From Acholoe squamosa (Eukaryota; Annelida; Polychaeta; Phyllodocida; Polynoidae), in NCBI GenBank assembly GCA_949317995.1, contig OX439036.1, forward strand, positions 2,225,207 to 2,289,206: 64,000 nucleotides of DNA, in the 5' to 3' direction. Each line of letters starts with the position of its first letter. The stretch's first letter is position 1. The position numbers and the translations under genes are program-made. Shown here in pieces: positions 1-60,236 of the stretch. A model generated the notes under the pieces. That model was not told the origin of the DNA. It made no database searches and worked only from the letters and a program-made list of their open reading frames with translations.

Positions 1-3000
1 TAGGAAGTAGGCACACATAGAGATGGGCAGAGAGGGGGGATGGTAGACTTAGGGACAGAGATGTAGGAAGTAGGCACACATAAAGATGGGCAGTGAGGGG
101 GAATGGTGGACTTAGGGACAGAGATGTAGGAAGTAGGCACACATAGAGATGGGCAGTGAGGGGGAATGGTGGACTTAGGGACAGAGATGTAGGAAGTAGG
201 CACACATAGAGATGGGCAGTCAGGGGGGATGGTAGACTTAGGGACAAAGATGTAGGAAGTAGGCACACATAGAGATGGGCAGTGACGGGGGGTGGTAGAC
301 TTAGGGACAGAGATGTAGGAAGTAGACACACATAGAGATGGGCAGTGAGGGGGAATGGTGGACTTAGGGACTGAGATGTAGGAAGTAGGCACACATAGAG
401 ATGGGCAGAGAGGGGGAATGGTAGACTTAGGGACAGAGATGTAGGAAGTAGGCACACATAGAGATGGGCAGTGAGGGGGAATGGTTGTCTTAGGGACAGA
501 GATGTAGGAAGTAGGCACACATAGAGATGGGCAGTGAGGGGAATGGTAGACTTAGGGACAGAGATGTAGGAAGTAGGCACACATAGAGATCGGCATGGAG
601 GGGGGATGGTGGACTTAGGGACAGAGATGTAGGAAGTAGGCACACATAGAGATGGGCAGTGAGGGGGATGGTGGACTTAGGGACAGAGATGTAGGAAGTA
701 GGCACACATAGAGATGGGCAGTGAGGGGGGATGGTATACTTAGGGACAGAGATGTAGGAAGTAGGGACACATAGAGATGGGCAGTGAGGGGAATGGTGGA
801 CTTAGGGACAGAGATGTAGGAAGTAGGCACACATAGAGATGGGCAGTGAGGGGGGATGGTAGACTTAGGGACAGAGATGTAGGAAGTAGGCACACATAGA
901 GATGGGCAGTGACGGGGGTGGTAGACTTAGGGACAGAGATGTAGGAAGTAGACACACATAGAGATGGGCAGTGAGGGGGAATGGTGGACTTAGGGACTGA
1001 GATGTAGGAAGTAGGCACACATAGAGATGGGCAGAGAGGGGGAATGGTAGACTTAGGGACAGAGATGTAGGAAGTAGGCACACATAGAGATGGGCAGTGA
1101 GGGGGGATGGTAGACTTACGGACAGAGATGTAGGAAGTAGGCATACATAGAGATGGGCAGTGAGGGGGGATGGTAGACTTAGGGACTGAGATGTAGGAAG
1201 TAGGCACACATAGAGATGGGCAGTGAGGGAAATGGTGGACTTAGGGACAGAGATGTAGGAAGTAGGCACACATAGAGATGGGCAGTGAGGGGGGATGGTA
1301 GACTTAGGGACAGAGATGTAGGAAGTAGGCACACATAGAGATGGGCAGTGAGGGGGAATGGTGGACTTAGGGACAGAGATGTAGGAAGTAGGCACACATA
1401 GAGATGGGCAGTGAGCGGGGATGGTGGACTTAGGGACAGAGATGTAGGAAGTAGACACATAGAGATGGGTAGTGAGGGGGAATGGTGGACTTAGGTACAG
1501 AGATGTAGGAAGTAGGCACACATAGAGATGGGAAGTAAGGGGGAATGGTGGACTTAAGGACAGAGATGTAGGAAGAAGGCACACATAGAGATGGGCAGTG
1601 AGGGGGAATGGTTGTCTTAGGGACAGAGATGTAGGAAGTAGGCACACATAGAGATGGGCAGTGAGGGGAATGGTGGACTTAGGGACAGAGATGTAGGAAG
1701 TAGGCACACATAGAGATCGGCATGGAGGGGGGATGGTGGACTTAGGGACAGAGATGTAGGAAGTAGGCACACATAGAGATGGGCAGTTAGGGGGGATGGT
1801 AGACTTAGGGACAGAGATGTAGGAAGTAGGGACACATAGAGATGGGCAGTGAGGGGGAATGGTGGACTTAGGGACAGAGATGTAGGAAGTAGACACACAT
1901 AGAGATGGGCAGTGAGGGGGATGGTGGACTTAGGGACTGAGGTGTAGGAAGTAGGCACACATAGAGATGGGCAGTGAGGGGGAAAAGTGGACTTAGGGAC
2001 AGAGATGTAGGAAGTAGACACACATAGAGATGGGCAGTGGGGGTAGATGGTAGACTTAGGGACAGAGATGTAGGAAGTAGGCACACATAGAGATGGGCAG
2101 TGAGGGGGGATGGTAGACTTAGGGACAGAGATGTAGGAAGTAGACACACATAGAGATGGGCAGTGAGGGGGGATGGTAGACTTACGGACTGAGATGTAGG
2201 AAGTAGACACATAGAGATGGGCAGAGAGGGAGGATGGTAGACTTACGGACAGAGATGTAGGAAGTAGGCATACATAGAGATGGGCAGTGAGGGGGGATGG
2301 TAGACTTAGGGACTGAGATGTAGGAAGTAGGCACACATAGAGATGGGCAGTGAGGGGGAATGGTAGACTTAGGGACTGAGATGTAGGAAGTAGGCACACA
2401 TAGAGATGGGCAGTGAGGGGGAATGGTGGACTTAGGGACAGAGATGTAGGAAGTAGGGACACATAGAGATGGGCAGTGAGGGGGAATGGTGGACTTAGGG
2501 ACAGAGATGTAGGAAGTAGGCACACATAGAGATGGGCAGTGAGGGGGAATGGTGGACTTAGGGACAGAGATGTAGGAAGTAGGGACACATAGAGATGGGC
2601 AGTGAGGGGAATGGTGGACTTAGGGACAGAGATGTAGGAAGTAGGCACACATAGAGATGGGCAGTGAGGGGGGATGGTAGACTTAGGGACAGAGATGTAG
2701 GAAGTAGGCACACATAGAGATGGGCAGTGACGGGGGGTGGTAGACTTAGGGACAGAGATGTAGGAAGTAGACACACATAGAGATGGGCAGTGAGTGGGAA
2801 TGGTGGACTTAGGGACTGAGATGTAGGAAGTAGGCACACATAGAGATGGGCAGAGAGGGGGAATGGTAGACTTAGGGACAGAGATGTAGGAAGTAGGCAC
2901 ACATAGAGATGGGCAGTGAGGGGGGATGGTAGACTTACGGACAGAGATGTAGGAAGTAGGCATACATAGAGATGGGCAGTGAGGGGGGATGATAGACTTA

Positions 3001-6000
3001 GGGACTGAGATGTAGGAAGTAGGCACACATAGAGATGGGCAGTGAGGGGGAATGGTGGACTTAGGGACAGAGATGTAGGAAGTAGGCACACATAGAGATG
3101 GGCAGTGAGGGGGGATGGTAGACTTAGGGACAGAGATGTAGGAAGTAGGGACACATAGAGATGGGCAGTGAGGGGGAATGGTGGACTTAGGGACAGAGAT
3201 GTAGGAAGAAGGCACACATAGAGATGGGCAGTGAGGGGGAATGGTTGTCTTAGGGACAGAGATGTAGGAAGTAGGCACACATAGAGATGGGCAGTGAGGG
3301 GAATGGTGGACTTAGGGACAGAGATGTAGGAAGTAGGCACACATAGAGATCGGCATGGAGGGGGGATGGTGGACTTAGGGACAGAGATGTAGGAAGTAGG
3401 CACACATAGAGATGGGCAGTGAGGGGGATGGTGGACTTAGGGACTGAGGTGTAGGAAGTAGGCACACATAGAGATGGGCAGTGAGGGGGGATGGTAGACT
3501 TAGGGACAGAGATGTAGGAAGTAGGCACACATAGAGATGGGCAGTGAGGGGGAATGGTGGACTTAGGGACAGAGATGTAGGAAGTAGACACACATAGAGA
3601 TGGGCAGTGGGGGTAGATGGTAGACTTAGGGACAGAGATGTAGGAAGTAGGCACACATAGAGATGGGCAGTGAGGGGGGATGGTATACTTAGGGACAGAG
3701 ATGTAGGAAGTAAACACAGATAGAGATGGGCAGTGAGGGGGGATGGTAGACTTAGGGACTGAGATGTAGGAAGTAGGCACACATAGAGATGGGCAGTGAG
3801 GGGGAATGGTGGACTTAGGGACAGAGATGTAGGAAGTAGGCACACATAGAGATGGGCAGTGAGGGGGGATGGTAGACTTAGGGACAGAGATGTAGGAAGT
3901 AGGGACACATAGAGATGGGCAGTGAGGGGGAATGGTGGACTTAGGGACAGAGATGTAGGAAGAAGGCACACATAGAGATGGGCAGTGAGGGGGAATGGTT
4001 GTCTTAGGGACAGAGATGTAGGAAGTAGGCACACATAGAGATGGGCAGTGAGGGGAATGGTGGACTTAGGGACAGAGATGTAGGAAGTAGGCACACATAG
4101 AGATCGGCATGGAGGGGGGATGGTGGACTTAGGGACAGAGATGTAGGAAGTAGGCACACATAGAGATGGGCAGTGAGGGGGATGGTGGACTTAGGGACTG
4201 AGGTGTAGGAAGTAGGCACACATAGAGATGGGCAGTGAGGGGGGATGGTAGACTTAGGGACAGAGATGTAGGAAGTAGGCACACATAGAGATGGGCAGTG
4301 AGGGGGAATGGTGGACTTAGGGACAGAGATGTAGGAAGTAGACACACATAGAGATGGGCAGTGGGGGTAGATGGTAGACTTAGGGACAGAGATGTAGGAA
4401 GTAGGCACACATAGAGATGGGCAGTGAGGGGGGATGGTATACTTAGGGACAGAGATGTAGGAAGTAAACACAGATAGAGATGGGCAGTGAGGGGGGATGG
4501 TAGACTTAGGGACTGAGATGTAGGAAGTAGGCACACATAGAGATGGGCAGTGAGGGGGAATGGTGGACTTAGGGACAGAGATGTAGGAAGTAGGCACACA
4601 TAGAGATGGGCAGTGAGGGGGGATGGTAGACTTAGGGACAGAGATGTAGGAAGTAGGGACACATAGAGATGGGCAGTGAGGGGGAATGGTGGACTTAGGG
4701 ACAGAGATGTAGGAAGAAGGCACACATAGAGATGGGCAGTGAGGGGGAATGGTTGTCTTAGGGACAGAGATGTAGGAAGTAGGCACACATAGAGATGGGC
4801 AGTGAGGGGAATGGTGGACTTAGGGACAGAGATGTAGGAAGTAGGCACACATAGAGATCGGCATGGAGGGGGGATGGTGGACTTAGGGACAGAGATGTAG
4901 GAAGTAGGCACACATAGAGATGGGCAGTGAGGGGGATGGTGGACTTAGGGACTGAGGTGTAGGAAGTAGGCACACATAGAGATGGGCAGTGAGGGGGGAT
5001 GGTAGACTTAGGGACAGAGATGTAGGAAGTAGGCACACATAGAGATGGGCAGTGAGGGGGAATGGTGGACTTAGGGACAGAGATGTAGGAAGTAGACACA
5101 CATAGAGATGGGCAGTGGGGGTAGATGGTAGACTTAGGGACAGAGATGTAGGAAGTAGGCACACATAGAGATGGGCAGTGAGGGGGGATCGTATACTTAG
5201 GGACAGAGATGTAGGAAGTAAACACAGATAGAGATGGGCAGTGAGGGGGGATGGTAGACTTACGGACTGAGATGTAGGAAGTAGACACATAGAGATGGGC
5301 AGTGAGGGGGGATGGTAGACTTACGGACAGAGATGTAGGAAGTAGGCATACATAGAGATGGGCAGTGAGGGGGGATGGTAGACTTAGGGACTGAGATGTA
5401 GGAAGCAGGCACACATAGAGATGGGCAGTGAGGGGGAATGGTGGACTTAGGGACAGAGATGTAGGAAGTAGGCACACATAGAGATGGGCAGTGACGGGGG
5501 GTGGTGGACTTAGGGACAGAGATGTAGGAAGTAGACACATAGAGATGGGCAGTGAGGGGGAATGGTGGACTTAGGGACAGAGATGTAGGAAGTAGGCACA
5601 CATAGAGATGGGCAGTGAGCGGGGATGGTAGACTTAGGGACAGAGATGTAGGAAGTAGGGACACATAGAGATGGGCAGTGAGGGGGAATGGTGGACTTAG
5701 GGACAGAGATGTAGGAAGTAGGCACACATAGAGATGGGCAGTGCGGGGGGATGGTAGACTTAGAGACAGAGATGTAGGAAGTATGCACACATAGAGATGG
5801 GAAGTAAGGGGTAATGGTGGACTTAGGGACAGAGATGTAGGAAGTAGGCACACATAGAGATGGGCAGTGAGGGGGGGGGGGTGGTGGACTTAGGGAAAGA
5901 GATGTAGGAAGTAGGCACACATAGATATGGGCAGTGAGGGGGGGATGGTGGACTTACGGACAGAGATGTAGGAAGTAGACACACATAGAGACGGGCAGTG

Positions 6001-6345
6001 AGGGGGGGATGGTGGACTTACGGACAGAGATGTAGGAAGTAGACACACATAGAGATGGGCAGTGAGGGGGAATGGTAGACTTAGGGACAGAGATGTAGGA
6101 AGTAGACACACATAGAGATGGGCAGTGAGGGGGGATGGTGGACTTAGGGACAGAGATGTAGGAAGTAGACACACATAGAGATGGGCAATGAGGGGGGATG
6201 GTAGACTTAGGGACAGAGATGTAGGAAGTAGACACATATAAAGATGGGCAGTGAGGGGGGATGGTAGACTTAGGGACAGAGATGTAGGAAGTAGGCACAC
6301 ATAGAGATGGTGACATGGGCAGAGAGGGGGAGTGGTGGACCTAGG
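1..6345. repeat. 63-bp minisatellite array
   Basis: About 100 head-to-tail copies of a 62-63 bp purine-rich unit that begins TAGGAAGTAGGCACACATAG and contains GGTGGACTTAGGGACAGAG. The array runs in from beyond the left edge and decays after 6310. Variants are mostly single-base changes and changes in G-run length. Because 63 is a multiple of three, the minus strand holds long open frames (up to about 550 codons) with a 21-residue periodic product. They switch between two reading frames wherever a unit is 62 bp, have no codon-level constraint, and are not genes. No single-copy progenitor was found elsewhere in the window. Confidence 0.95.
3240..5260. repeat. 754-bp higher-order repeat (12-mer of the 63-bp unit)
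   Basis: Diagnostic variants recur at exact 754-bp spacing: GGTTGTCTTAG at about 3244, 3998 and 4752, and ATCGGCATGGAG at about 3348, 4102 and 4856. The 260-codon open frames at 3250-4032 and 4004-4786, and those at 3375-4157 and 4129-4911, translate identically. Successive 12-unit blocks are therefore almost identical although the units inside a block differ. The same markers occur at about 484/588 and 1612/1713 with irregular spacing, so only this part of the array is freshly amplified. Confidence 0.9.
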
Positions 6346-12245: not shown

Positions 12246-12970
12246 TTATGCAGAAGAGACTTCTTAGTCAGTACTACCTTTTCCCATCAGAGCAACATCC
12301 TCCATACCCCACATATGAAGGGAACTCAACTTGTCCTGGAACCTGTACTTCTGGCCATTGCCATATACCTGTACAGATACACATTCCTGAAGCTTTTTAT
12401 AAACATTGCACTATATATTATGGAGTGACACTGACCTCCTTATTGTGACGCGACGTCTCGTGTCTAACATCACAACACTGTGATTAGAGAATTTATCATA
12501 TGGCTTTGTGCAGAATAGCAGAACCACCTAATTTGAATGTTGATATATCAATTAGTATCAGTGGATTGCCAATGTTACTTTGACGCTTGTTTTCCCTTTA
12601 ATAGGCCAGTTCTTCAAAAACTGCTATGTGTAGAGTGAAACAGATGCTTGAACAAGGTCAGAAAGTAGCCCCTAAAAGGGTTTTAGTCAAGAAAGGCTCT
12701 TAAAAGATGAAAGTTATTTTGATGTAGGGAGTGATGGTCTGTGATTTTGTGTATAGCTAGGCCAATAAAGGACCAACAGAAAAGTTTCTATTGTAACTAT
12801 TCATGTATATACGGCGTGTTGGTCTATGTGTTCACTTTGTAATAAAACAAGTCTGCTGAATGTCACATCAAAAAAATATATGAACAGAGTCACTCTTTGT
12901 CTTGTTTTATCCCTATATCATTTCAAAATATCCTAAATTGAGTAAGTAAAAAGGACAAATTGCTGCTCCA
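12246..12970. other. sequence upstream of the TLR pseudogene
   Basis: No coding signal. By comparison with the intact paralogue this should be the remains of the intron ending at the conserved acceptor (12977-12978). Two short overlapping open frames near 12216-12448 look like noise. Confidence 0.5.
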
Positions 12971-12978
12971 TTCCACAG

Positions 12979-14333
12979 GTCCAAGTACAATCATGTTGCT
13001 GCTGTTCCTGTTCTTGTGGACATCAACAGTAGACTCTGCTAATACAATCTCAAATTACACTGATGAGTGTGACATCATCGAAGTGACGACCACATTTTTT
13101 TTCTGTAATCAAACAACAAAAAAATTGAGCTCCTGGCACTTAACACTAGATTGGGGAGTTTTGTCTTTGGCAACAACTTGTTTTCTCCATATTTGAAGTA
13201 TCTCCTCATCACAATAGTGTTCCATTGCCACATCAGCTCAGGAATATCTAATACTTCAAAGGAGCTTACAGACTTCAAATTGCAGTGGACAATGATTGTA
13301 CCAGATCTAAATTTTAGTTATGCATTGGCTGAAACATTCAATACCATAATTGTTAATACAACATCTCAAACCTTTGGACCCTCAATATCAACTTGAAACC
13401 CTCAATATCAGAGTGGGTGATGGTAGGTAACACACTACGACTATACTCTGTACGATCAGCACTTAAGGCATTAATTACCATTAGGGCAGTCATACCAGTG
13501 CAATTATTAGTGACCACCAATTGCAGGGCTGTAATGGCATTTTACTGAGGCAGCTCTCTAGGACTTGAAGGGGGTCTAGTCATACCGCCTTGAGAAATGC
13601 CTTCCAGAACAACTCAGGTTAACCTGTGACAGTTTGGATACATCCTGCTCTCCCTGCCTGCCAAATGTAACAATCCTGGACATATCTAAGAATCCCATGA
13701 AGATTCTCAACTCTAATATCGCTGCTGATCTGCCAAATCTCCAGGAGGTCGGTATACAGCTTTGCTCCCTGTCAACACTAAACCAGAGTCTTCTCCTATC
13801 TAGTAATTTAGAAAGACTTAGTCTTAACAACAATAGGCGGGAGTTATTTGATGTACATTGTCAAAGTTTCAGGAAAGAGTCATGCCTGTCTGTTCTACTA
13901 CTTCAAAATAACAAACTACAGCATCTACCTTTGGGTTTATTATTTTGTTTCCCACAGTTGCAACATCTAGATCTGTTATTTAACCAGCTTAGCGAGAACG
14001 ATCTCACTGTGGCTGGACTGAATGTTTTGATAAATCTAACCTATCTTGATCTTAGCAGCAATTCTGTGGGGTCTCTCCCCTTGATCAGTAATTTGACAGA
14101 ACTGGTAGAGTTGTCCTTTAGTGGATGTAGGTTGATGAGAATTCAGAATGATACCTTCAGTGGAATGAATAAATTAAAAGTTCTTAAACTGGACAGAAAC
14201 AATCTACATGTAATAGAGAGTGGAGCTTTGTCACATCTTGGACATCTGAAAAAGTTGGACCTTAGTGAAAATGACCTCAGTGAAACAAGCTTTCTCCAAA
14301 AACTCCCATCTCTCGAGGTTCTGCATTTACAGC
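12979..14333 (+). pseudogene. Toll-like receptor ectodomain pseudogene
   Basis: Diverged, truncated copy of the minus-strand TLR (exon 1 at 24407-22462). It keeps the 3' splice site (CCACAG at 12973-12978), the 14-nt leader and a start ATG at 12993, followed by a hydrophobic signal-peptide-like start and the shared CDIIEV motif. There is then a deletion plus a one-base shift in an A-run (about 13090-13125). The frame 13142-13396 matches the paralogue (NLFSP, CHISSG, LQWTM) and hits a stop at 13394-13396. About 50 codons are replaced by a MITE-B. Homology resumes at 13606 and runs through about a dozen LRRs (for example LERLSLNNNR, LKVLKLDRNNLHV) to about 14333, after which it stops. The C-terminal LRRs, transmembrane segment and TIR are absent. 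The retained intron boundary shows it arose by DNA duplication, not retroposition. Confidence 0.9.
13412..13605. mobile_element. MITE-B inserted in the TLR pseudogene
   Basis: The right end is CGCCTTGAGAAATGCCTTCC, the MITE-B terminus, directly abutting TLR homology at 13606. The interior shares AATTGCAGGGCTGTAATGGC-type sequence with the copies at 19318-19494 and 32083-32338. The left boundary is approximate. A small duplication (CCCTCAATATCA twice, about 13379-13408) lies just before it. Confidence 0.7.
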
Positions 14334-15204
14334 TAAAAGTGTCCGGAAATAGAGGAGCTTCGCCAGGTGGAGGTAAATGCAGTACAATAGTAAATGATGC
14401 TTTTATATTATGATGAGACACTAAGTTTGAAAGCACAACACCCGTTACAGGAGATACAAATCTGTGAGATCCACACATCAAAACCTGTCAAGTTGTGGTA
14501 GATTCAGTATGTGAATAGAATAATGGTTTTAGTGAGGTTATTTTGAAGTGTTTTAGTTTGGTTTGATCTTTGTAATAGTTATAATGTGGCGACCCCTGGT
14601 GGCGGTATGTTTAACTATCATACAGTACATGTAGTGGCTGTCTATGGAGTACAAGGTAGTTAAGGTTTATAGTGATGAATTTTATGATAACATCATGTGC
14701 TAATTATAAGGATTCCAATATACAACATGATATTAAGCCTTGACACAAATACATATTCTATTTGTAATGTGGCATCAGAATTATGAGGACTATTCCTAAC
14801 CTGATACTGTTAGGGAAAGTAACTTCAATCTCATTTGCCTATACCAGTCTGTGTGATCATTTATCTCAATTACTACCATGTACAGCTGTCACGATGCCTA
14901 CATACATGTCTGAATGACATTAGATATGTCATAAAGTTGTTCCCTCTTTAGTTTCAATATATCATGCCACATTATGCACCCCCTGCATTCAATAATGTGG
15001 CCATTTAGAGCTCCCTGTTACAATAATATTTCCCTTTGTTCACATATGACCTTGACCTTACCCAAGGGCATGAAACAAAACAGAATTAAAGCAATATATC
15101 ATAGTTGATTTCTAAACTCAAAGGTAAGTGCCAACAATGAGAATCCAAGACCTCAGATTTAAGCAACAACAAAAATGGAGATTTTGTCTTTTATATCAAT
15201 TATG
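14334..15204. other. spacer between TLR pseudogene and 80-bp array
   Basis: AT-rich, no gene. The open frame that leaves the pseudogene ends at 14413 after about 25 codons without TLR similarity. If the TLR gene once ended at 15205, the part next to that point would be its old 3' untranslated region on the minus strand; this is inference. Confidence 0.5.
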
Positions 15205-15279
15205 TTAATACACCTGCATGGGGTTGAACTCTATGCCTAAAACTTCATCTGCACCCTGAGGTTTATTAGGCAGGTAGTA
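15205..15279 (-). pseudogene. outer copy of the TLR C-terminal tail (24 codons plus stop)
   Basis: Read on the minus strand, these 75 bases are an open frame ending in TAA (15207-15205). It runs YYLPNKPQGADEV, then LGIEFNPMQVY. The real TLR C-terminus (18476-18402) runs YYLPHNPKGADDV, then VGREFHPMQVY: 17 of 24 residues agree and both stop at the same codon. At the DNA level about 12 of 75 positions differ. It is the outermost unit of the 80-bp array and the only array unit I found that keeps the TLR reading frame to the stop. The rest of the gene is not attached to it. Confidence 0.88.
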
Positions 15280-18200
15280 GTAATGTTAATACACCACCCA
15301 CCTACATGGTTTTAAACTGTCAACCTCACTGCACACTGAGGGTTATAGGGCTTGTAGTAGTAATGTTAATACACCTACATGGTCTTAAACTGTCAACCTG
15401 TAACCTCGCTGTACCCTGAGGGTTATAGGCCTTGTAGTAGTAATGTTAATACACCTACACGGTGTTAAACTGTCAACCTGTAACCTCCCTGTACCCTGAG
15501 GGTTATAGGGCTTGTAGTAGTAATGTTAATACACATACATGGTCTTAAACTGTCAACCTGTAACCTCGCTGCACCCTGAGGGTTATAGGGCTTGTAGTAG
15601 TAATGTTAATACACATACATGGTTTTAAACTGTCAGCCTGTAACCTCGCTGTACCCTGAGGGTTATAGGGCTTGTAGTAGTAATGTTAATACACATACAT
15701 GGTGTTAAACTGTCAGCCTGTAACCTCGCTGTACCCTGAGGGTTATAGGGCTTGTAGTAGTAATCTTAATACACCTACATGGTGTTAAACTGTCAACCTG
15801 TAACCTCGCTGTACCCTGAGGGTTATAGGGCTTGTAGTAGTAATGTTAATACACCTACAAGGTGTTAAACTGTCAACTTGTAACCTCGCTGTACCCTGAG
15901 GATTATAGGGCTTGTAGTAGTAATGTTAATACACCTACAAGGTGTTAAACTGTCAACCTGTAACCTCGCTGCACCCTGAGGGTTATAGGGCTTGTAGTAG
16001 GGCTTGTAGTAGTAATGTTAATACACATACACAGTGTTAAACTGTCAACCTGTAACCTCGCTGTACCCTGAGGGTTATAGGGCTTGTAGTAGTAATGTTA
16101 ATACACCTACAAGGTGTTAAACTGTCAACCTGTAACCTCGCTGTACCCTGAGGGTTATAGGGCTTGTAGTAGTAATGTTAATACTCATACATGGTGATAA
16201 ACTTTCAACCTGTAACCTCGCTGTACCCTGAGGGTTATAGGGGGTGTAGTAGTAATGTTAATACACATACATGGTTTTAAACTGTCAGCCTGTAACCTCG
16301 CTGTACCCTGAGGGTTATAGGGCTTGTAGTAGTAATCTTAATACACCTACATGGTGTTAAACTGTCAACCTGTAACCTCGCTGTACCCTGAGGGTTATAG
16401 GGCTTGTAGTAGTAATGTTAATACACATACATGGTGATAAACTGTCAACCTGTAACCTCGCTGTACCCTGAGGGTTATAGGGCTTGTAGTAGTAATCTTA
16501 ATACACCTACAAGGTGTTAAACTGTCAACTTGTAACCTCGCTGTACCCTGAGGGTTATAGGGCTTGTAGTAGTAATGTTAATACACATACATGGTTTTAA
16601 ACTGTCAGCCTGTAACCTCGCTGTACCCTGAGGGTTATAGGGCTTGTAGTAGTAATCTTAATACACCTACATGGTGTTAAACTGTCAACCTGTAACCTCG
16701 CTGTACCCTGAGGGTTATAGGGCTTGTAGTAGTAATCTTAATACACCTACAAGGTGTTAAACTGTCAACTTGTAACCTCGCTGCACCCTGAGGGTTATAG
16801 GGCTTGTAGTAGTAATGTTAATACACCTACAAGGTGTTAAACTGTCAACTTGTAACCTCGCTGTACCCTGAGGGTTATAGGGCTTGTAGTAGTAATCTTA
16901 ATACACCTACAAGGTGTTAAACTGTCAACCTGTAACCTCGCTGCACCCTGAGGGTTATAGGGCTTGTAGTAGTAATGTTAATACACCTACAAGGTGTTAA
17001 ACTGTCAACCTGTAACCTCGCTGTACCCTGAGGGTTATAGGGCTTGTAGTAGGGCTTGTAGTAGTAATGTTAATACACATACATGGTGATAAACTTTCAA
17101 CCTGTAACCTCGCTGTACCCTGAGGGTTATAGGGCTTGTAGTAGTAATGTTAATACTCATACATGGTGATAAACTTTCAACCTGTAACCTCGCTGTACCC
17201 TGAGGGTTATAGGGGGTGTAGTAGTAATGTTAATACACATACATGGTGATAAACTATCAACCTGTAACCTCGCTGCACCCTGAGGATTATAGGGCTTGTA
17301 GTAGAGCTTGTAGTAGTAATGTTAATACACCTACACGGTGTTAAACTGTCAACTTGTAACCTCGCTGTACCCTGAGGGTTATAGGGCTTGTAGTAGTAAT
17401 GTTAATACACATACATGGTGATAAACTATCAACCTGTAACCTCGCTGCACCCTGAGGATTATAGGGCTTGTAGTAGAGCTTGTAGTAGTAATGTTAATAC
17501 ACCTACATGGTGTTAAACTTTCAACCTGTAACCTCGCTGTAGTCAGAGGGTTATAGGGCTTGTAGTAGTAATGTTAATACACCTACACAGTGTTAAACAG
17601 TCAACCTGTAACCTCGCTGTACCCTGAGGGTTATAGGCCTTGTAGTAGTAATGTTAATACACCTACACGGTGTTAAACAGTCAACCTGTAACCTCGCTGC
17701 ACCCTGAGGGTTATAGGGCGTGTAGTAGTAATGTTAATACACCTACATGGTGATAAACTATCAACCTGTAACCTCGCTGCACCCTGAGGGTTATAGGGCT
17801 TGTAGTAGTAATGTTAATACACATACATGGTGATAAACTGTCAACCTGTAACCTCGCTGTACCCGGAGGGTTATAGGGGGTGTAGTAGTAATGTTAATAC
17901 ACATACATGGTGATAAACTATCAACCTGTAACCTCGCTGCACCCTGAGGATTATAGGGCTTGTAGTAGGGCTTGTAGTAGTAATGTTAATACACCTACAT
18001 GGTGTTAAACTTTCAACCTGTAACCTCGCTGTAGTCAGAGGGTTATAGGGCTTGTAGTAGTAATGTTAATACACCTACACAGTGTTAAACAGTCAACCTG
18101 TAACCTCGCTGCACCCTGAGGGTTATAGGGCTTGTAGTAGTAATGTTAATACACATACATGGTGATAAACTGTCAACCTGTAACCTCGCTGTACCCGGAG

Positions 18201-18401
18201 GGTTATAGGGGGTGTAGTAGTAATGTTAATACACATACATGGTGATAAACTATCAACCTGTAACCTCGCTGCACCCTGAGGATTATAGGGCTTGTAGTAG
18301 GGCTTGTAGTAGTAATGTTAATACACCTACACGGTGTTAAACTGTCAACCTGTAACCTCGCTGTAGTCAGAGGGTTATGAAGCATGCAGGTATTGGTAAT
18401 G
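15205..18401. repeat. 80-bp minisatellite derived from TLR coding sequence
   Basis: About 40 copies of an 80-bp unit (TAATGTTAATACACCTACAT, then GGTGTTAAACTGTCAACCTG, then TAACCTCGCTGTACCCTGAG, then GGTTATAGGGCTTGTAGTAG). Some units carry an extra 12-bp GGCTTGTAGTAG (about 15996, 17050, 17300, 17470, 17960 and 18297). Each block aligns position by position with the last coding codons of the TLR gene at 18402-18476. The array joins the gene seamlessly at the stop codon. Multi-unit blocks recur (for example 17220-17300 and 17400-17470). Inner units have lost the reading frame; open frames across them are spurious. Confidence 0.92.
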
Positions 18402-21400
18402 TTAATACACCTGCATGGGGTGGAACTCTCTGCCAACAACATCATCGGCACCCTTAGGGTTATGGGGCAGATAGTAGCGCAGCTTCTTCCAGAACCATTT
18501 CTCTCCCATCACCAAGAACGGGTTCATCTTTAGGTACTGCTTCATGGAGGGAGTCATATTATCGTGCAGGAGGTTCCTGTCTGTCAGAATGATCAACAGC
18601 CGCATCTGTTTGTCTTTTAACACCTGCAAGTCAAAAAGTAGACATGATTTTGATGATTACCCTATAAATAAAAAGCTAGATAAAAGCACATACTTTTTTC
18701 AAAATTAACTCAATTTTTCTCCATGATTTCAAGGTTTTGAATCTTTTCAGCTACCCCTATATGAAAACACAATAACCTCTATCACATTGCATGACGAGAG
18801 ACAGAACATTTTTGATAAATCAGCCATTTTGAACTCATTAAATAGGCCATTAGAATAGGTACTTCTGCATTAAATTGATGCTATACATCCATGGTATCAC
18901 CCCTTAAATTAAAGTGTTAAAAGGACTCAGAATTTTTTAGATTTAGATACTTTACCCTAAACTTTTGAATTGAGCCCTTCTGAGAGAATCAGCTTGAGAG
19001 TGATGTTACCATTATGATTTATGATGCAACAGCACATACATCATGTAACCTGGTAACGTCATGTTACTAAACAACGTCTGTGGCGCTACCAAACAGGCCA
19101 GAATTTGCCAAAGATGCAGGCCACATTTTGCCGTGAGAATGGGCCACATTTTGCCATGAAAAATTTGCCCAAAATATGTGAGGGGAACCCCCCATAGTGC
19201 CGAAGGCACTAGTAGAAGTTAAAAAAGAGGTAAATATTATATGGATGATATGAAAACCAGAAAAGTTGCAGCTTTTTTATAATTTCAGAATCCAGTGAAA
19301 GCATATAAGTTTTTAGAATGGGTGTCTGTGCACTACGACTGATCTTTATGCTGTAATTACAATGGGTTTGGTAGGGCGTCATACAACAGTGACCACTAGA
19401 TGCAGGGCTGTAACAGCATTAGAGGGGGGAATCCCACTACAACTGGAAGGGGTCTAGTTGTTCCATCTTGAGAAATGCCCTCCTGAGACTAAACTAGAAA
19501 TAAGAAATTCCATTACCTGATATAATCCTAGATCGAAACTATATTCACACCATTGGTCTTTGAAGTAGTTCTCAGTTAGGAACAGAATGGTCCGCTTGCT
19601 TTGCTGGATGGCACAAACAAACATATCTGTTGTTGCAGTCGCTGCCGGCCAGTCGCGACCCTCTATGCACACCTTTGAGAGAACACAAAATTATGAACCT
19701 GACGTATAAAGTGATATACAGAATAGATAATGTGCATTTTTATATAGCAGAAACTTATGGTAAATTGATAATCAGGTTTTAGAAAGGACAAGGAGCTGCT
19801 TCTGAACTTCATCAAATACTCCTGAATTCAAGATGCACATTATAAGATATTACACAATAAAACAGTACGAAAATAATATACAAGATGCACCTTTCCTTTG
19901 GCTCAGGGTGCACCTTATACGCTATGTCTTATAACTCATGCAAAATATTATATTGCTCTAAAAGAGTCATTTTAATGTACCAATAAGGTATAGTGGTGAG
20001 TGACTCACCATCATGATATTTATCTGCCATAATTCATATGAATTTTCTCACCTTAAATGACATTGGCCCCTCTTCGAGTCCAGGTAACAACTCATTAACA
20101 ACAAGAGCATCGTCGTTCTTAGAATATGCAATGAATACATCGTATTCCTTATCAGCATTGTCTTTGGAGTTGATGCACAGTCCATATTGGTTATAAATCC
20201 ATACTTTCAACAGAAAGCGTTTTGTATACAGCACCAATGAAATACTAACAAAAATGGCAAACACTGCCACTATGGCAATACCTTCTATGATTGATTTACT
20301 GTGGCTGTGTTTGATATGCACAGAGCCTGTCTGATTGCTACATACTGAAAAGTCAACATCTAGCACAGGCTGGAAAATGTTATTTGGGTTCACTAAAAGA
20401 AAATCAATCCTGCAATAGATCTCAGCAGGTATTGAAACCACATGAACATTTGAAACGAGCCATTTCTGGAATTGTGGCCCAAACTGACAGTCACACACCC
20501 ACGGGTTATCATGGAGTGTCAACTCAGTCAGTGAGGCCAGGTCATCAAATACTGTCAGATTCACAAATTGTAACATATTTTTGTGAAAAGACAGTGACTC
20601 TAGATTTGGTAGGCCATGGAAACTGTCACTGTCTATGGACTTTATCTTGTTTTCCTGAAGACATAGCTGCTTCAAAGTCTGAATGTTACTAAATGTATAT
20701 GTCCTGATATATTGTATTTCATTTTGATGCAAATCAAGGAATTTTATTTTTTTGAGGTGACTGAATACACCTGGTTCCAGCTCTGAAATGTAGCTTTTAT
20801 TCATATACAGCGTTTCAAGGTCAGGGAACTTTAAAGCTGATGAGTTCAGAGAAAATATTTTGTTACCATCAATCCATATACTTTTTGCATCTGCCGGTCC
20901 TTGAAGAAGTAAGGTAGTCAGTCCTCTTTCAGTGCAGTTCATAGTATTTATGCTATTGTCATTTGTATAATAGCAGGTACACTGTGGATAACAGAAGGTT
21001 CTACAAGAACAGTTGTGCTGCCGGCAACATCCCTGGCTACATGAAGCTTTTACACAAATATTTTTGTATGTGCACCAGAAGTCATCATGGCTAAGAGTGG
21101 AAAGTAACTTCCCACCGTTAGGTCCCGAGATACCACATTGTATAAGGTCCAAATCTGCTATCTGAAAGTAGACATGAAACGAGACAATTAATCATAAGGT
21201 TACATCTGGTTGGTTCTGATACATTCCCCCATGCTTGATAATAGATGACTCAAATTCTCTTAATAGTTATTAGAGAGTTTAAGATTTGCCTACTTGTAAC
21301 ATGTACGACAATGTCTACCCTACTATTTCCTATCATTCTACTTGTAGATGTTGCCATACACGTCGTGCTCTGGTTCTTGTTTTGCAGAATGGAAAAAAAC

Positions 21401-24400
21401 TAGAGCCCTTCAAATTATCAAGGGATCTTTCACTGTAATACCATTACAACCCTGCTTCTAGTGGTCACTAATAGTGAGGCTTTCAAATTGCTTTCAAATC
21501 ATAATGGCTGTGTGCAGTCACCTGTACAAAGGTTTTCTTTATCACCAGGCGTAGATTGCTGCTAACATTACCATACAACTTCTCAAACTTATCCGCATCT
21601 GTTTCTTTCACGAAAACAGTATTCCTTAAGAAATATAGGAAAACTTAATTAAAGAGTTATCAAGACTCAAGCCACATGATCTTAAAATATTGGTTAAAAC
21701 TGATTGAGTAATGAGCAATGAATTTCTTTTGTCCTTAACCTCCGATCCAAAGTCTCCTCAAATCTAAATAATATTAAGTGGCATTGTTGCATAAACCAAC
21801 ACAACAATTCACCCCCACATACTGTCAAAATGTGCCATGTAGAAATGAACTGATGAACAATAGAAACCTATCATCTTAGAGTCAAATGTAAATGTTACAA
21901 GCCCGAACTAAACACCAAGCTTTTGGCGCTGGCTTGATCTTTAGGAAATATTGTTTAGCATTAAAAAAAATAGAGCAGTTGTATGAAAAGGACTTAATGA
22001 CATATTGATATAAGGGCCTATCAAAATTAAGGGATATAGGGAAATGTATCTTTAACAATTGCCCATTGTCTGTTTACTGTGGGTAGGTATGGTTAAATAC
22101 TGTAGCTTTGGCTGCTTAGAGCAAGTGAGCTATAGGAGAATGATTGACAGCTCTGACCCCTGGCCATCTTGTGAGGTGAGGTCAAAGGTCACATGGTCAA
22201 TCATCTCAAGATTTTGTGTATATCTTTACGTATACATTTGACTATCTTTAATAGAATCAAAGATTCAGGTGCATAAGAATACAGGCTTTTAAGCAGTGAG
22301 GAGCAATACAGAATAAGCAATTGGAACATGTGGAGGCCTGCAATATCACCAAAACCAAATGGACCACATAACTACAAACACTGGATAATACTTTTCACTG
22401 TATATATGAAGTTAACAGTAAAAGTTTTTAAATTAAAGCAGCTATCAAATGTATCACTCACTTGTTGATCATATCCAGTGTCTCTTCTATGTGACAGTCA
22501 CAATGAATGGGGTTGCCAGCAAGAAAAACCTGAGGCAGGGGCCTGTTTGTTGTCATCAAAACTTCAGGAGTCAGTGTATGAATGTTGTTATATCTCAGGT
22601 CAAGAACTCTTAAGGCCGGAAAGAGCCCAGTATTGGATGCTACTTTAGAAATTCTGTTATGTGACATATCAACATACTGCAATGACAATTCCACCCCATT
22701 GAAATCAAATATTTCAATGAGGTTACCACTGAGGTTTAAAGTTTGAAGAAGTAGTAAACTCAATCCAGATTTAAATGGAGGAACAACAGTTAACAGATTG
22801 TTATCTAATCTTAGATGCTCTAAGGACCGCATTTTGTCGAGACCATAGTATTCGATACGCTTTATTCTGTTATCCTTCAAGTTCAATTTAATTAAGGAGG
22901 TTAAATGCTTGAAAGCATAATTCTGTATGATTTGGATGTGATTGAAAGCCAATGATAGGTTTTTCAATAGAGTTAATCCAAACAAGTGTTTGGGATCCAC
23001 TTTGCTGATGTTGTTACCATCCAAAATCAATGTAGAGAGCAACCAGTATGAATAGAAAGAAAAGTCCGGAATTTCCAATAGATTGTTTTTTCTTAAATGA
23101 AGATCTTCTAGGTATGGGAGTGTTGAGAGAAAACTTGTTTTACTGAGGTCATTTTCACTAAGGTACAACTTTTGCAGATGTCCAAGGTGCGATAAAGTAG
23201 CGCTCTCTATTTCATGTAGATGGTTTCTGTCTAGTTTAAGAACTTTTAATCTATTCATTCCACTGAATGTATCATTCTGAATTCTCACCAACCTACATCC
23301 ACTACAGATGAACTCTACCAGTTCTGTCAAATTACTGATCAGAGTCCGAGGAAGAGAGCATACATTGTTGAAGCTTAGATCAAGATGGGTTAGATTTATC
23401 AAAACATTCAGTCCAGCCTTGGAAAGATCGTCCTCGCTAAGTTGGTTTGAGGACAGATCTAGATGTTGCAGCCGTTTGATACAAGAGAAAAATCCAGGAG
23501 GTAAATTCTGTAGTTGATTATTATTTAGAAGTAGAACAGCAAGGAGAGACTCATTCCTGAAATATTGACACTGCACTTCAAGAAACTGTAACCTATTGTT
23601 GTTGAGACTAAGTCTTTCTAAATGTCTCGATAAGAGAAGAGTCATGTTCAGTGTTGATAATGGACAATGTATAATATCAAGCTCTTTGAGATTGGGCAGA
23701 TCAGCAGCTAAATTTGAGTTGAGAATCTTCATTGGATTATTAGATATGTTCAGGTGTGTTACTTTAGGCAGGCAAGGAGAGCAGGATGTATCCAAACTGT
23801 CACAGGTTAACCCGAGTTGTTCTGAACTTGGTATTTTGTTACCGTGCAAATCTAACTTTTGTAGCTCCTTCAGTGCACAGAACTCTCCTGTTCTGAAGGA
23901 GCTGAAATTTCCACTACTTAAATCCAAGTAGACGAGCATTGTAATGGGTGTTAACCAATCAGGACCAAATGTTGGAGATGTCCATGTTGAATTTACAATG
24001 GTTGTATCATATATTTTAGCCAGCGTAGGACTAAGAATTTGATCTGGTAAAGGCATTGTCCATTGGAGATCAAAGTATATCAGCTGCCTTGATGCATTAA
24101 ATGTTCCTGAGCTAATGTGGCAGGGGAACACTGTTATGATGACAAGGTACTTCAAATCTGGAGAAAACAAGTTGTCAGCAAAGACATAACTCACCAGTCG
24201 AGTCGAAAGGGAGAGCATCTCAATATGTGGTTGTTTGATCACAGCAAGAACTGCATCAAGGTTTTCCGTGGTTAAATGACATGAATAATCCAATTGTCCT
24301 GAGTTGGGCACTTCGATGATGTCACAGCCGTGAGTGTGATTTTCCCTAATGTTGGCAGAGTTTACTGTTAATATCCCCAAGGACAGCAGCATCAGCATCA

Positions 24401-24407
24401 GCATCAT
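18402..24407 (-). CDS. Toll-like receptor, five coding exons (about 1178 aa)
   Basis: Predicted single-pass innate immune receptor of the Toll family. Coding exons (minus strand): 24407-22462, 21624-21522, 21161-20052, 19672-19517, 18623-18402. Donors read GTGAGT, GTGACT, GTGAGA and GTAATG; every acceptor ends in AG, and the joined frame is open throughout. Exon 1 starts at tandem ATGs after a conserved 3' splice site, so there is an upstream non-coding exon. Residues 1-18 are a signal peptide, followed by about 20 LRRs. A first LRRCT (NPIHCDC near 632) runs across exon 2 into exon 3, then come a cysteine-rich LRRNT (about 720-760), six LRRs, a second LRRCT (NPWVCDC near 902) and one transmembrane helix (about 974-996). 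The TIR domain is split over three exons: box 1 YDVFIAYS (1023), box 2 CIEGRDW (about 1055) and box 3 FW (1149). Ligand unknown. No break seen. The stop codon touches a minisatellite made from its own last codons. Confidence 0.92.
19318..19494. mobile_element. MITE-B in TLR intron 4
   Basis: The right end is CCATCTTGAGAAATGCCCTCCT and the interior contains GATGCAGGGCTGTAACAGCA, matching the copies at 13412-13605 and 32083-32338. It lies 22 bp inside the intron from the exon 4 donor (19516). It carries no coding sequence; the apparent extension of the TIR frame past 19517 is read-through into it. Confidence 0.65.
21405..21520. mobile_element. partial MITE-B abutting the exon 2 splice donor
   Basis: CCATTACAACCCTGCTTCTA and GTGGTCACTAATAGTGAGGC, then CAAATCATAATGGCTGTGTG, follow the order of the MITE-B copy at 32083-32338. 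The homology runs to CAGTC at 21515-21519, which is the complement of intron bases +3 to +7 of the exon 2 donor. The terminal part of the element is missing or absorbed into the exon-intron junction. Confidence 0.55.
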
Positions 24408-41830: not shown

Positions 41831-41937
41831 AACACATAAAGACAGCACTGGTGAGTAACTCTCCGAGGCAACATGCATGCATCATGCTGGTTCTGTGCGG
41901 TTGATACACTCCTGTATGCTCCGCATGACAGCCTGAT
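41831..41937. mobile_element. MITE-A remnant at the edge of the 47-bp array
   Basis: CACTGGTGAGTAACTCTCCG, ATGCATGCATCATGCTGG and GGTTGATACACTCCTGTATG follow MITE-A interior order. The sequence runs without a break into GACAGCCTGATACATCAATG, the first array unit. Confidence 0.6.
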
Positions 41938-44900
41938 ACATCAATGACTACTCTCCTTACTGTTACTCCATGGGACAGCCTGATACATCAATGACTACTC
42001 TCCTTGCTGGTACTCCATGGGACAGCCTGATACATCAATGACTCCTATTGCTGGCACTCCATGGGACAGCCTGATACATCAATAACTATCTCCTTGCTGG
42101 TACTCCATGGGACAGCCTGATACATCAATGACTCTCCTTGCTGGTACTCCATGGGACAGCCTGATACATCAATAACTACTCTCCTTGCCAGCACTCCATG
42201 GGACAGCCTGATACATCAATAACTACTCTCCTTGCCAGCACTCCATGGGACAGCCTGATACATCAATAACTACTCTCCTTGCCAGCACTCCATGGGACAG
42301 CCTGATACATCAATGACTACTCTCCTTGCCAGCACTCCATGGGACAGCCTGATACATCAATGACTACTCTCCTTACTGGTACTCCATGGGACAGCCTGAT
42401 ACATCAATAACTACTCTCCTTGCCAGCACTCCATGGGACAGCCTGATACATCAATAACTACTCTCCTTGCTGGCACTCCATGGGACAGCCTGATACATCA
42501 ATGACTACTCTCCTTACTGGCACTCCATGGGACAGCCTGATACATCAATGACTACTCTCCTTACTGGCACTCCATGGGACAGCCTGATACATCAATGCCT
42601 ACTCTCCTTGCTGGCACTCCATGGGACAGCCCGATACATCAATGACTACTCTCCTTACTGGTACTCCATGGGCCAGCCAGATACATCAATGACTACTCTC
42701 CTTGCTGGTACTCCATGGGACAGCCCGATACATCAATGACTACTCTCCTTGCCAGCACTCCATGGGACAGCCTGATACATCAATGACTACTCTCCTTACT
42801 GGTACTCCATGGGACAGCCATATACATCAATGACTACTCTCCTTACTGGTACTCCATGGGACAGCCTGATACATCAATGACTACTCTCCTTGCTGGTACT
42901 CCATGGGACAGCCTGATACATCAATGACTACTCTCCTTGCTGGCACTCCATGGGACAGCCCGATACATCAATGACTACTCTCCTTACTGGCACTCCATGG
43001 GACAGCCTGATACATCATTGACTACTCTCCTTGCTGGTACTCCATGGGACAGCCTGATACATCAATGACTACTCTCCTTGCCAGCACTCCATGGGACAGC
43101 CTGATACATCAATAACTACTCTCCTTACTGGTACTCCATGGGACAGCCTGATACATCAATGACTACTCTCCTTGCTGGCACTCCATGGGACAGCCCGATA
43201 CATCAATGACTACTCTCCTTGTTGGGACTCCATGGGACAGCCTGATACATCAATGACTACTCTCCTTGCCAGCACTCCATGGGACAGCCTGATACATCAA
43301 TGACTACTCTCCTTGCTGGTACTCCATGGGACAGCCTGATACATCAATGACTACTCTCCTTGCTGGCACTCCATGGGACAGCCCGATACATCAATGACTA
43401 CTCTCCTTACTGGCACTCCATGGGACAGCCTGATACATCATTGACTACTCTCCTTGCTGGTACTCCATGGGACAGCCTGATACATCAATGACTACTCTCC
43501 TTGCCAGCACTCCATGGGACAGCCTGATACATCAATAACTACTCTCCTTACTGGTACTCCATGGGACAGCCATATACATCAATGACTACTCTCCTTCCTG
43601 GTACTGCATGGGACAGCCTGATACATCAATGACTACTCTCCTTGTTGGGACTCCATGGGACAGCCTGATACATCAATGACTACTCTCCTTGCCAGCACTC
43701 CATGGGACAGCCTGATACATCAATGACTACTCTCCTTGCTGGCACTCCATGGGACAGCCTGATACATCAATGACTACTCTCCTTGCTGGTACTCCATGGG
43801 ACAGCCTGATACATCAATGACTACTCTCCTTGCTGGCACTCCATGGGACAGCCCGATACATCAATGACTACTCTCCTTCCTGGTACTGCATGGGACAGCC
43901 TGATACATCAATGACTACTCTCCTTGTTGGGACTCCATGGGACAGCCTGATACATCAATGACTACTCTCCTTGCCAGCACTCCATGGGACAGCCTGATAC
44001 ATCAATGACTACTCTCCTTGCTGGCACTCCATGGGACAGCCTGATACATCAATGACTACTCTCCTTGCTGGCACTCCATGGGACAGCCTGATACATCAAT
44101 GACTACTCTCCTTGCCAGCACTCCATGGGACAGCCTGATACATCAATGACTACTCTCCTTACTGGCACTCCATGGGACAGCCTGATACATCAATAACTCT
44201 CCTTACTGGCACTCCATGGGACAGCCTGATACATCAATGACTACTCTCCTTGCTGGTTCTCCATGGGACAGCCTGATACATCAATGACTACTCTCCTTAC
44301 TGGCACTCCATGGGACAGCCTGATACATCAATGACTACTCTCCTTGCTGGCACTCCATGGGACAGCCTGATATATCAATGACTACTCTCGTTGCTGGTAC
44401 TCCATGGGACAGCCTGATACATCAATAACTACTCTCCTTACTGGTACTGCATCGGACAGCCTGATACATCAATGACTACTCTCCTTGCTGGCACTCCATG
44501 GGACAGCCTGATACATCAATGACTACTCTCCTTACTGGTACTCCATGGGACAGCCTGATACATCAATGACTACTCTCCTTACTGGTACTCCATGGGACAG
44601 CCCGATACATCAATAACTCTCCTTACTGGCACTCCATGGGACAGCCTGATACATCAATGACTACTCTCCTTGCTGGTACTCCATGGGACAGCCTGATACA
44701 TCAATGACTACTCTCCTTGCTGGTACTCCATGGGACAGCCTGATACATCAATGACTACTCTCCTTGCTGGTACTCCATGGGACAGCCCAATACATCAATG
44801 ACTACTCTCCTTGCTGGTACTCCATGGGACAGCCCCATACATCAATGACTCTCCTTACTGGTACTCCATGGGACAGCCTGATACATCAATGACTACTCTC

Positions 44901-47900
44901 CTTGCTGGTACTCAATTGGACAGCCTGATACATCAATGACTTCTCTCCTTACTGGTACTCCATGGGACAGCCCAATACATCAATGACTACTCTCCTTGCT
45001 GGTACTCCATGAGACAGCCCCATACATCAATGACTCTCCTTGCTGGTACTCCATGGGACAGCCTGATACATCAATGACTACTCTCCTTCCTGGTACTGCA
45101 TGGGACAGCCTGATACATCAATGACTACTCTCCTTGTTGGGACTCCATGGGACAGCCTGATACATCAATGACTACTCTCCTTGCCAGCACTCCATGGGAC
45201 AGCCTGATACATCAATGACTACTCTCCTTGCCAGCACTCCATGGGACAGCCTGATACATCAATGACTACTCTCCTTGCTGGCACTCCATGGGACAGCCTG
45301 ATACATCAATGACTACTCTCCTTGCTGGCACTCCATGGGACAGCCTGATACATCAATGACTACTCTCCTTGCCAGCACTCCATGGGACAGCCTGATACAT
45401 CAATGACTACTCTCCTTACTGGCACTCCATGGGACAGCCTGATACATCAATAACTCTCCTTACTGGCACTCCATGGGACAGCCTGATACATCAATGACTA
45501 CTCTCCTTGCTGGTTCTCCATGGGACAGCCTGATACATCAATGACTACTCTCCTTACTGGCACTCCATGGGACAGCCTGATACATCAATGACTACTCTCC
45601 TTGCTGGCACTCCATGGGACAGCCTGATATATCAATGACTACTCTCGTTGCTGGTACTCCATGGGACAGCCTGATACATCAATAACTACTCTCCTTACTG
45701 GTACTGCATCGGACAGCCTGATACATCAATGACTACTCTCCTTGCTGGCACTCCATGGGACAGCCTGATACATCAATGACTACTCTCCTTACTGGTACTC
45801 CATGGGACAGCCTGATACATCAATGACTACTCTCCTTACTGGTACTCCATGGGACAGCCCGATACATCAATAACTCTCCTTACTGGCACTCCATGGGACA
45901 GCCTGATACATCAATGACTACTCTCCTTGCTGGTACTCCATGGGACAGCCTGATACATCAATGACTACTCTCCTTGCTGGTACTCCATGGGACAGCCTGA
46001 TACATCAATGACTACTCTCCTTGCTGGTACTCCATGGGACAGCCCAATACATCAATGACTACTCTCCTTGCTGGTACTCCATGGGACAGCCCCATACATC
46101 AATGACTCTCCTTACTGGTACTCCATGGGACAGCCTGATACATCAATGACTACTCTCCTTGCTGGTACTCAATTGGACAGCCTGATACATCAATGACTTC
46201 TCTCCTTACTGGTACTCCATGGGACAGCCCAATACATCAATGACTACTCTCCTTGCTGGTACTCCATGGGACAGCCCCATACATCAATGACTCTCCTTGC
46301 TGGTACTCCATGGGACAGCCTGATACATCAATGACTACTCTCCTTGCTGGTACTCCATGGGACAGCCCAATACATCAATGACTACTCTCCTTGCTGGTAC
46401 TCCATGGGACAGCCCCATACATCAATGACTCTCCTTACTGGTACTCCATGGGACAGCCCCATACATCAATGATTCTCCTTGCTGGTACTCCATGGGACAG
46501 CCTGATACATCAATGACTACTCTCCTTACTGGTACTCCATGGGACAGCCTGATACATCAATGACTACTCTCCTTACTGGTACTCCATGGGACAACCTGAT
46601 ACATCAATGACTCTCCTTGCTGGTACTCCATGGGACAGCCTGATACATCAATAACTACTCTCCTTACTGGTACTCGATGGGACAGCCTGATACATCAATG
46701 ACTACTCTCCTTGCTGGCACTCCATGGGACAGCCTGATACATCAATGACTACTCTCCTTGCTGGTACTCCATGGGACAGCCTGATACATCAATGACTACT
46801 CTCCTTGCTGGAACTCCATGGGACAGCCTGATACATCAATGACTCTCCTTACTGGTACTCCATGGGACAGCCTGATACATCAATGACTACTCTCCTTGCT
46901 GGCACTCCATGGGACAGCCTGATACATCAATGACTACTCTCCTTACTGGCACTCCATGGGACAGCCTGATACATCAATGACTCTCCTTGCCAGCACTCCA
47001 TGGGACAGCCTGATACATCAATGACTCTCCTTGCTGGCACTCCATGGGACAGCCTGATACATCAATGACTCTCCTTGCTGGCACTCCATGGGACAGCCTG
47101 ATACATCAATGACTACTCTCCTTGCTGGTACTCCATGGGACAGCCTGATACATCAATGACTACTCTCCTTACTGGTACTCCATGGGACAGCCTGATACAT
47201 CAATGACTACTCTCATTGCCAGTACTCCATGGGACAGCCTAATACATCAATGACTACTCTCCTTGATGGAACTCCATGGGACAGCCTGATACATCAATGA
47301 CTACTCTCCTTGCCAGTACTCCATGGGACAGCCTGATACATCAATGACTACTCTCCTTGATGGAACTCCATGGGACAGCCTGATACATCAATGACTACTC
47401 TCCTTGCTGGTACTCCATGGGACAGCCTGATACATCAATGACTACTCTCCTTGATGGAACTCCATGGGACAGCCTGATACATCAATGACTACTCTCCTTG
47501 CCAGTACTCCATGGGACAGCCTAATACATCAATGACTACTCTCCTTGCTGGCACTCCATGGGACAGCCTGATACATCAATGACTACTCTCCTTGCTGGCA
47601 CTCCATGGGACAGCCTGATACATCAATGACTACTCTCCTTACTGGTACTCCATGGGACAGCCTGATACATCAATGACTACTCTCCTTGCTGGTACTTCAT
47701 GGGACAGCCTGATACATCAATGACTACTCTCCTTGCTGGCACTCCATGGGACAGCCTGATACATCAATGACTACTCTCCTTGCTGGTACTCCATGGGACA
47801 GCCTGATACATCAATGACTACTCTCCTTGCTGGCACTCCATGGGACAGCCTGATACATCAATGCCTACTCTCCTTCCTGGCACTCCATGGGACAGCCTGA

Positions 47901-60049: not shown

Positions 60050-60236
60050 TATAAGCTCACCCTGAGCTTTTGAATGGGTTATTACATATATAGAGTATAT
60101 CTAGGAATGGCAAACATTTCAAGCCCTATCTGTGGCTTATAGTCCCAAAGTCAGGGTGCAAATTATAATATGTGTTTGGGGCAAGGAAATTAGAAAGAGA
60201 CAGAGAAAAAGATACGGAGAATAGTAAGAGAGAGAA

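Follow-up and report, generated by a model that had tools for sequence, protein, structure and literature searches.

The tandem array behind a Toll-like receptor gene

The window analysed here is a 64,000-bp stretch of the Acholoe squamosa genome (contig OX439036.1; C2:2225207-2289206). It harbours a Toll-like receptor (TLR) gene, gene A, and, directly behind it on the same strand, a tandem array that extends to position 15202. The results described below indicate, with a probability of roughly 0.9, that the array was seeded by a small tandem duplication of the gene's own tail. Pieces of gene A matched the Pfam LRR and TIR families, which gives it the leucine-rich repeat ectodomain and the TIR domain of a Toll-like receptor, and the TIR part matched TLR TIR domains in the PDB, including that of TLR2 (E 1.6e-13). 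A search of solved structures with the last exon alone gave no matches at E 1. A hydrophobic stretch was visible in the translation of the exon at 20052-21161. The last exon (18623-18402) terminates in FWKKLRYYLPHNPKGADDVVGREFHPMQVY and a stop codon, and the coding end at 18402-18476 on the minus strand reads YYLPHNPKGADDVVGREFHPMQVY followed by the stop. An inverted partial TLR copy lies tail to tail with gene A at 12950-14332 on the plus strand; it corresponds to part of the first exon, and its pieces are 72-82% identical to gene A.

Tandem Repeats Finder returned a period of 80, 37.4 copies and 89% matches for the array, which is thus a head-to-tail minisatellite. Cutting the array at TTAACAT or TTAAGAT gave 40 pieces including the gene tail. 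Of the 38 pieces between the gene tail and the outer unit, one is 84 bp long, and the other 37 measure 80 bp or, in six cases, 92 bp. The outer unit at 15205-15279 (minus strand) encodes YYLPNKPQGADEVLGIEFNPMQVY and a stop codon, and since the similarity continues 3 bases beyond the stop (..TTAACAT), the full outer unit is 15202-15282. An earlier note on this DNA had placed the start of the array exactly at the stop codon of the gene; the array does adjoin the gene end, but the homology reaches 3 bases past the stop. The segment of the gene that best fits as the founder (Table 1) begins with TAC, and TAC (18398-18396) also comes right after its end. The junction preceding the outer unit reads CAT-TAC-TAC-TAC-CTG, with one TAC beyond a plain 78-bp copy. 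Compared with the 81-bp outer unit, the interior form is one base shorter and has a block of ca. 15 bases changed, and some interior units carry a 12-base internal duplication.

The ends of the array diverged most from the interior consensus, with 10 substitutions and 4 gap columns in u01, 17 and 1 in u39, and 22 substitutions in u38, whose indels are hidden by the alignment. Units u02 to u37 showed only 1-7 substitutions each, i.e. the array displays an edge effect. Among the 36 interior units of this array (unit statistics cover A02-A37 and, at a second locus described below, B02-B17), 27 were distinct, and seven groups of identical units point to later block copying.

The repeat unit is homologous to the end of the TLR coding sequence

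With the stop counted, the gene tail and the outer unit agreed at 64 of 75 bases; they shared 61 of the 72 coding bases and 17 of 24 residues, in line with what the earlier note had read from the outermost unit. When the window was compared with itself by blastn with the middle of the array masked, the gene end was joined to the outer edge at 86% over 79 bp (E 3.5e-19). When a stretch containing the outer unit was searched against the whole genome (1.48 Gb in 63 contigs), it matched the tails of gene A (E 3.8e-17) and of a near copy, locus B (E 8.7e-16). The homology claimed in the earlier note for the 80-bp unit itself was also borne out: in the alignment of the interior consensus to the gene tail, 58 of the 77 ungapped columns were identical, and the local score of 53 was not reached in any of 5,000 base shuffles, of which the maximum was 24. 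In a 64-kb search, the last exon of gene A produced 14 matches in the interior array at E ≤ 0.01 (best E 5e-7), and all of them fell inside bases 144-222 of the 222-base exon. The similarity of the interior to the gene is weaker than that of the edge to the gene. The two edges were closer to each other (67/78 columns) than either was to the interior (gene, 58/77; outer unit, 63/80), and a genome-wide search with the interior consensus returned neither the gene tail nor a paralog exon at E 0.001.

A transposon origin of the unit was considered and rejected. In a genome search with the interior unit, in which three candidate places were scored and very common words were skipped, 56 of 57 matches lay in two TLR-linked arrays on C2 and the remaining one was a short piece on C18; no transposon match was obtained, so that no unrelated transposon fits the unit better than the exon does.

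The coding tail preceded the array

The last exon was used as a protein query against the genome to examine where else the tail occurs. Of the 50 matches at E up to 1, 22 spanned essentially the whole exon (E 4.2e-16 or better), namely gene A, the near-identical locus B and 20 paralogs distributed over eight chromosomes (C2, C3, C4, C5, C10, C15, C16 and C18), with the tail included in the alignment. Most paralog tails resemble YYLADNPRGADxVxGREF, while L062 is diverged in the middle of the tail. Resemblance of other TLR genes to the source of the unit, on which the earlier note had staked its reading, is therefore found in 20 genes besides gene A and its near copy. A tandem repeat search of 1.5 kb on either side of the paralog exons found an array with a period of ca. 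80 bp at L054 only, and in its own surroundings the last exon of L054 had no match other than the exon itself and two stretches of 9-10 bases attributable to chance. The remaining repeats around paralogs had periods of 2-36 bp; no tail-derived array was seen in the 1.5-kb flanks of the 20 paralogs, where only repeats with a period of ca. 80 bp were compared with the exon. Thus, the unit is homologous to a coding sequence that is present elsewhere without the array, as is to be expected of an exon-seeded array. With the tail present in 20 paralogs and a tail-derived array seen at none of them, the tail is old coding sequence and the array is derived from it.

In trees, gene A, locus B, the outer unit and the interior consensus were grouped against the 20 paralogs with bootstrap values of 99% (exon) and 95% (72 tail columns), so that the comparison of the unit and the edges with the TLR 3' ends of this genome, which the earlier note had called for, placed all of them in one group. 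Genes A and B were separated from the outer unit with values of 98 and 99%. By direct count, the outer unit was nearest to its own gene tail (61/72 bases), followed by copy B (60) and, among the other paralogs, L043 at best (54). The initial tail counts are void for L051, L056 and L058, whose sequences were shifted by 1-2 codons; these three were re-registered for the trees. L062 was retained in the trees, and L063-L066, which match part of the exon, were excluded along with all weaker matches.

The stop directly after the final Y, common to the gene and the outer unit, was examined as a shared derived mark. L043, L049 and L057 in the neighbouring clade continue with VYDNQ, but many paralogs stop at this position (e.g. 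L044-L048 and L050), and the mark is uninformative. Two further features of the paralogs were observed. At L054 (C4:71252141 region), minisatellites with an 80-bp period begin ca. 125 bp beyond the stop and are unlike its last exon. L053, L059 and L060 (C10:7167368, C4:85849560 and C10:7172217) are closely similar TLR last exons, and in all three the second matched codon is a stop.

A duplicate locus and the age of the array

Locus B is a duplicate of the gene with introns, whose last exon starts at C2:2966685 on the plus strand, 0.73 Mb from gene A. The exon pieces of the two loci are 94-97% identical, and locus B is broken by a stop within the last exon, 243 extra bases that interrupt exon 1 and the loss of 294 bases from exon 3. 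It carries the array with a matching 84-bp junction unit (A01-B01 distance 0.036; A00-B00 0.038), and 17 units follow the gene tail at B compared with 39 at A. Three of 72 bases distinguish the gene tails of A and B, against 11 of 72 for the gene tail and the outer unit. Because B carries both the array and the junction unit, and from these tail differences, the array is older than the gene duplication. None of the 36 interior A units was identical to any of the 16 B units, and the mean unit distances were 0.071 within A, 0.054 within B and 0.065 between A and B; the units of the two loci were intermixed in a poorly resolved unit tree. These similar distances and the absence of identical pairs indicate that much of the interior variation predates the duplication.

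The distal flank of B (621 bases searched) is single-copy in the genome apart from array units. When the flanks of A and B were compared with the regions around the 20 paralogs, only short dispersed pieces matched and the original 3' flank was not found. The similarity between A and B begins one base ahead of the ATG (window 24408; L029:2728), and the duplicated stretch thus seems to start at the start codon.

The outer edge of the array

The earlier note had described an intact coding tail at the outer edge. The frame is open, but intactness here means only that it is still open, which is expected by chance: when 11 random changes were made to the gene tail, with all changes placed on one branch, the probability of no stop was 0.69, a mean of 16.4 residues was retained and the probability of retaining at least 17 of 24 was 0.47. 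The dN/dS comparison of the edge tails that had been proposed there was carried out with the Nei-Gojobori (NG86) method and gave a dN of 0.14 and a dS of 0.28, values that rest on 11 differences, too few to lean on. Coding constraint on the outer tail is therefore not measurable, and its 17 of 24 shared residues are as expected from random change. With L043, L049 and L057 used for polarity, 6 of the 11 differences fell on the gene side and 3 on the edge side, and 2 were ambiguous. In its retention of older sequence, the relic equals or slightly surpasses the living gene, although the excess (6 versus 3) is not significant.

Beyond the outer unit lies a copy of a dispersed repeat, which is 86% identical to a copy on C9, 82% to one on C1 and 74% to those on C17 and C15. 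The four inspected copies share a common, different sequence past the join, showing that the copy in the window is truncated there. The point of truncation matches the edge of a unit to within 0-2 bp, and the exact offset varies with the reading chosen for the founder. It may be, as a matter of speculation, that the rearrangement at this truncation and the founding duplication were linked.

Proposed origin and alternative explanations

Based on these results, the origin of the array is proposed to be as follows. One small local tandem duplication would have extended over the final 24 codons with their stop and the 3 bases behind it (ca. 78 bp), with TAC at the start and just past the end, and one additional TAC would account for the 81 bp of the outer unit; the founding unit was probably 78-81 bp long. 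The extra copy, lying behind the stop codon, would have been free to mutate, and slippage and unequal exchange could then have amplified a mutated variant to ca. 37 copies. This variant would be the one that is one base shorter, has the ca. 15-base block changed and in some units bears the 12-base internal duplication, in a putative order of steps. The outermost units would have exchanged least and so escaped homogenisation, the real tail on the gene side being retained by selection and the relic on the far side by chance. The array itself is most likely functionless and may be transcribed as 3' untranslated sequence. This account keeps the central proposal of the earlier note, a tandem duplication of the end of the TIR exon with diverged and amplified inner copies and founder-like edges, which the paralogs and trees support. 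The further idea that the outer unit could be the original gene end does not hold in that simple form, as the truncated dispersed repeat follows the outer unit.

Several observations weigh against this account. In the standard model, direct repeats of 5-10 bp flank the duplicated founder, and the repeat found here is TAC, 3 bp only. The comparison was made within one genome assembly, and no allele free of the array was seen. The outer end of the array is the truncated end of a dispersed repeat, and B lacks a founder-like outer unit and has a different array end, which together leave the right-hand breakpoint of the founder uncertain. Interior units a short distance apart in the array were no more alike than distant ones, giving no sign of an expansion gradient. 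In the trees, the branching order of the outer unit and the interior had bootstrap values of just 47 and 42, and the interior branch (0.22-0.24) was about three times as long as the edge branch (0.06-0.08), unlike a simple clock, although a site test gave a p value of only 0.057.

The closer similarity of the edges to each other than to the interior would likewise be produced by an old array with unhomogenised edges, from which the gene recruited its last 25 codons. We give next to no credence to this order of events, since the last exons of 20 other TLR genes on eight chromosomes align over the tail and the sole array of similar period within 1.5 kb of these exons, at L054, is unmatched to its exon. 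It is also very improbable that the outer unit serves as a usable alternative receptor end or is a selected coding unit. Its 24 open codons with a stop and a dN/dS near 0.5 against the gene tail would fit such a role, but the unit carries none of the TIR domain that precedes the tail, random change alone accounts for the shared residues and the open frame, and 11 differences say little. Somewhat unlike these, capture or gene conversion, which would have brought the outer unit from the gene, from another paralog or together with the adjoining dispersed repeat, agrees with the rearrangement implied by the truncated repeat end and with the missing founder-like unit at B. We nevertheless regard it as improbable: the outer unit groups with its own locus and not with another paralog, its 11/72 differences compared with 3/72 between the gene duplicates mark it as no recent copy, and the four inspected copies of the dispersed repeat have other sequence at the join.

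A different kind of proposal, compatible with the seeding of the array by the gene tail, is that the array acts as a working 3' untranslated region (UTR) with its first poly(A) hexamer in the outer relic, so that copy number would set properties of the TLR mRNA. When AATAAA and five variants were scanned on the gene strand, none of these six hexamers occurred from the stop up to the AATAAA at 15267 in the outer unit. However, ca. 0.14 AATAAA are expected by chance in the ca. 165 bp of the two end units (0.84 per kb), and the hexamer is missing within 1.5 kb of the exon end in 7 of the 22 TLR loci examined, both A and B being among these seven, so that not finding it close by carries little information. 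Such a working UTR seems rather doubtful on these sequence data, and we think it unlikely that a hexamer which arose in the relic closes the UTR and that repeat number would make receptor mRNA vary between individuals.

Other repeats and positions of the features

A lone 47-bp piece of the interior unit lies at C18:33191419-33191465 (L031:4920-4966) and is 98% identical to window positions 17693-17739. It sits in DNA that was found once by the genome search, with a reverse-transcriptase frame ca. 440 bp further on (RVT_1, E 6e-25), and it may represent array DNA that served as filler within a retroelement copy. Elsewhere in the window, two 44-bp minisatellites of one unit (57548-60189 and 61693-63910) are each followed by a 134-bp stretch, 100% identical between the two, which reflects either a recent duplication or an assembly artefact. 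Very large minisatellites occupy 1-6310 (63 bp, 100 copies) and 41927-51323 (47 bp, 202 copies). The positions of the features of the TLR locus are given in Table 1.

Table 1 Features of the TLR locus and its array, in window coordinates
Feature	Position	Strand	Remarks
TLR gene A, 1178 codons plus stop, open	18402-24407	minus	AG acceptors and GT donors at exon joins; Pfam and PDB matches
Coding exons of gene A (n = 5)	24407-22462, 21624-21522, 21161-20052, 19672-19517, 18623-18402	minus	
Founder segment (best reading), 78 bp	18399-18476	minus	last 24 codons, stop and 3 bases (CAT)
Gene-side junction unit, 84 bp	18315-18398	minus	diverged; locus B has a unit at the corresponding position
Interior array, 37 units of 80 or 92 bp	15283-18314	minus	
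Penultimate unit	15283-15362	minus	diverged; counted within interior array
Outer edge unit, 81 bp	15202-15282	minus	coding-tail relic, 24 codons plus stop at 15279-15205
Dispersed repeat copy adjoining outer end of array	14584-15202	minus	similarity to other copies starts at array end

Comparison with known systems

It is seldom possible to identify the seed of a minisatellite; in this case the seed is a coding exon, for which 20 paralogs serve as outgroups. This locus allows one to recover the founding unit, to order some of the changes and to date the array relative to a later gene duplication, and it can serve as an instructive example for models of how minisatellites arise and of edge effects. 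The array is a clear and unusually well preserved fossil of minisatellite birth and does not represent a novel type of element. It stands out for its coding seed, for the paralogs available as outgroups and for edges that have survived, and it fits a standard model of minisatellite birth, local duplication with later amplification. TLR biology is unchanged by it unless transcript data show an effect. Among the titles and abstracts covered by a partial literature search, no description of a minisatellite seeded from a TLR exon was found.

In passages of PMC6947457, minisatellites are described as born when a motif lying between short direct repeats is duplicated locally and then amplified through slippage, conversion or unequal crossing-over. 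The array studied here resembles those minisatellites in its non-mobile local seed, short flanking repeat and this mode of amplification, and differs from them, as they are portrayed there, in three respects: it was seeded by the end of a coding exon, its flanking repeat measures only 3 bp, and both founder-like edges survive. Satellite repeats, according to a statement in PMC5615363, could in theory derive from any sequence. The satellites seeded by ribosomal DNA spacers or transposable elements that it mentions likewise had a pre-existing sequence as the seed, whereas the present case consists of one 3-kb array and one duplicate locus with a protein-coding exon as the seed. Coding minisatellites such as the zinc-finger array of Prdm9 also have tandem units of coding origin; unlike in Prdm9, the repeats described here lie behind a stop codon, and most units are 80 bp long, which is not a multiple of three.

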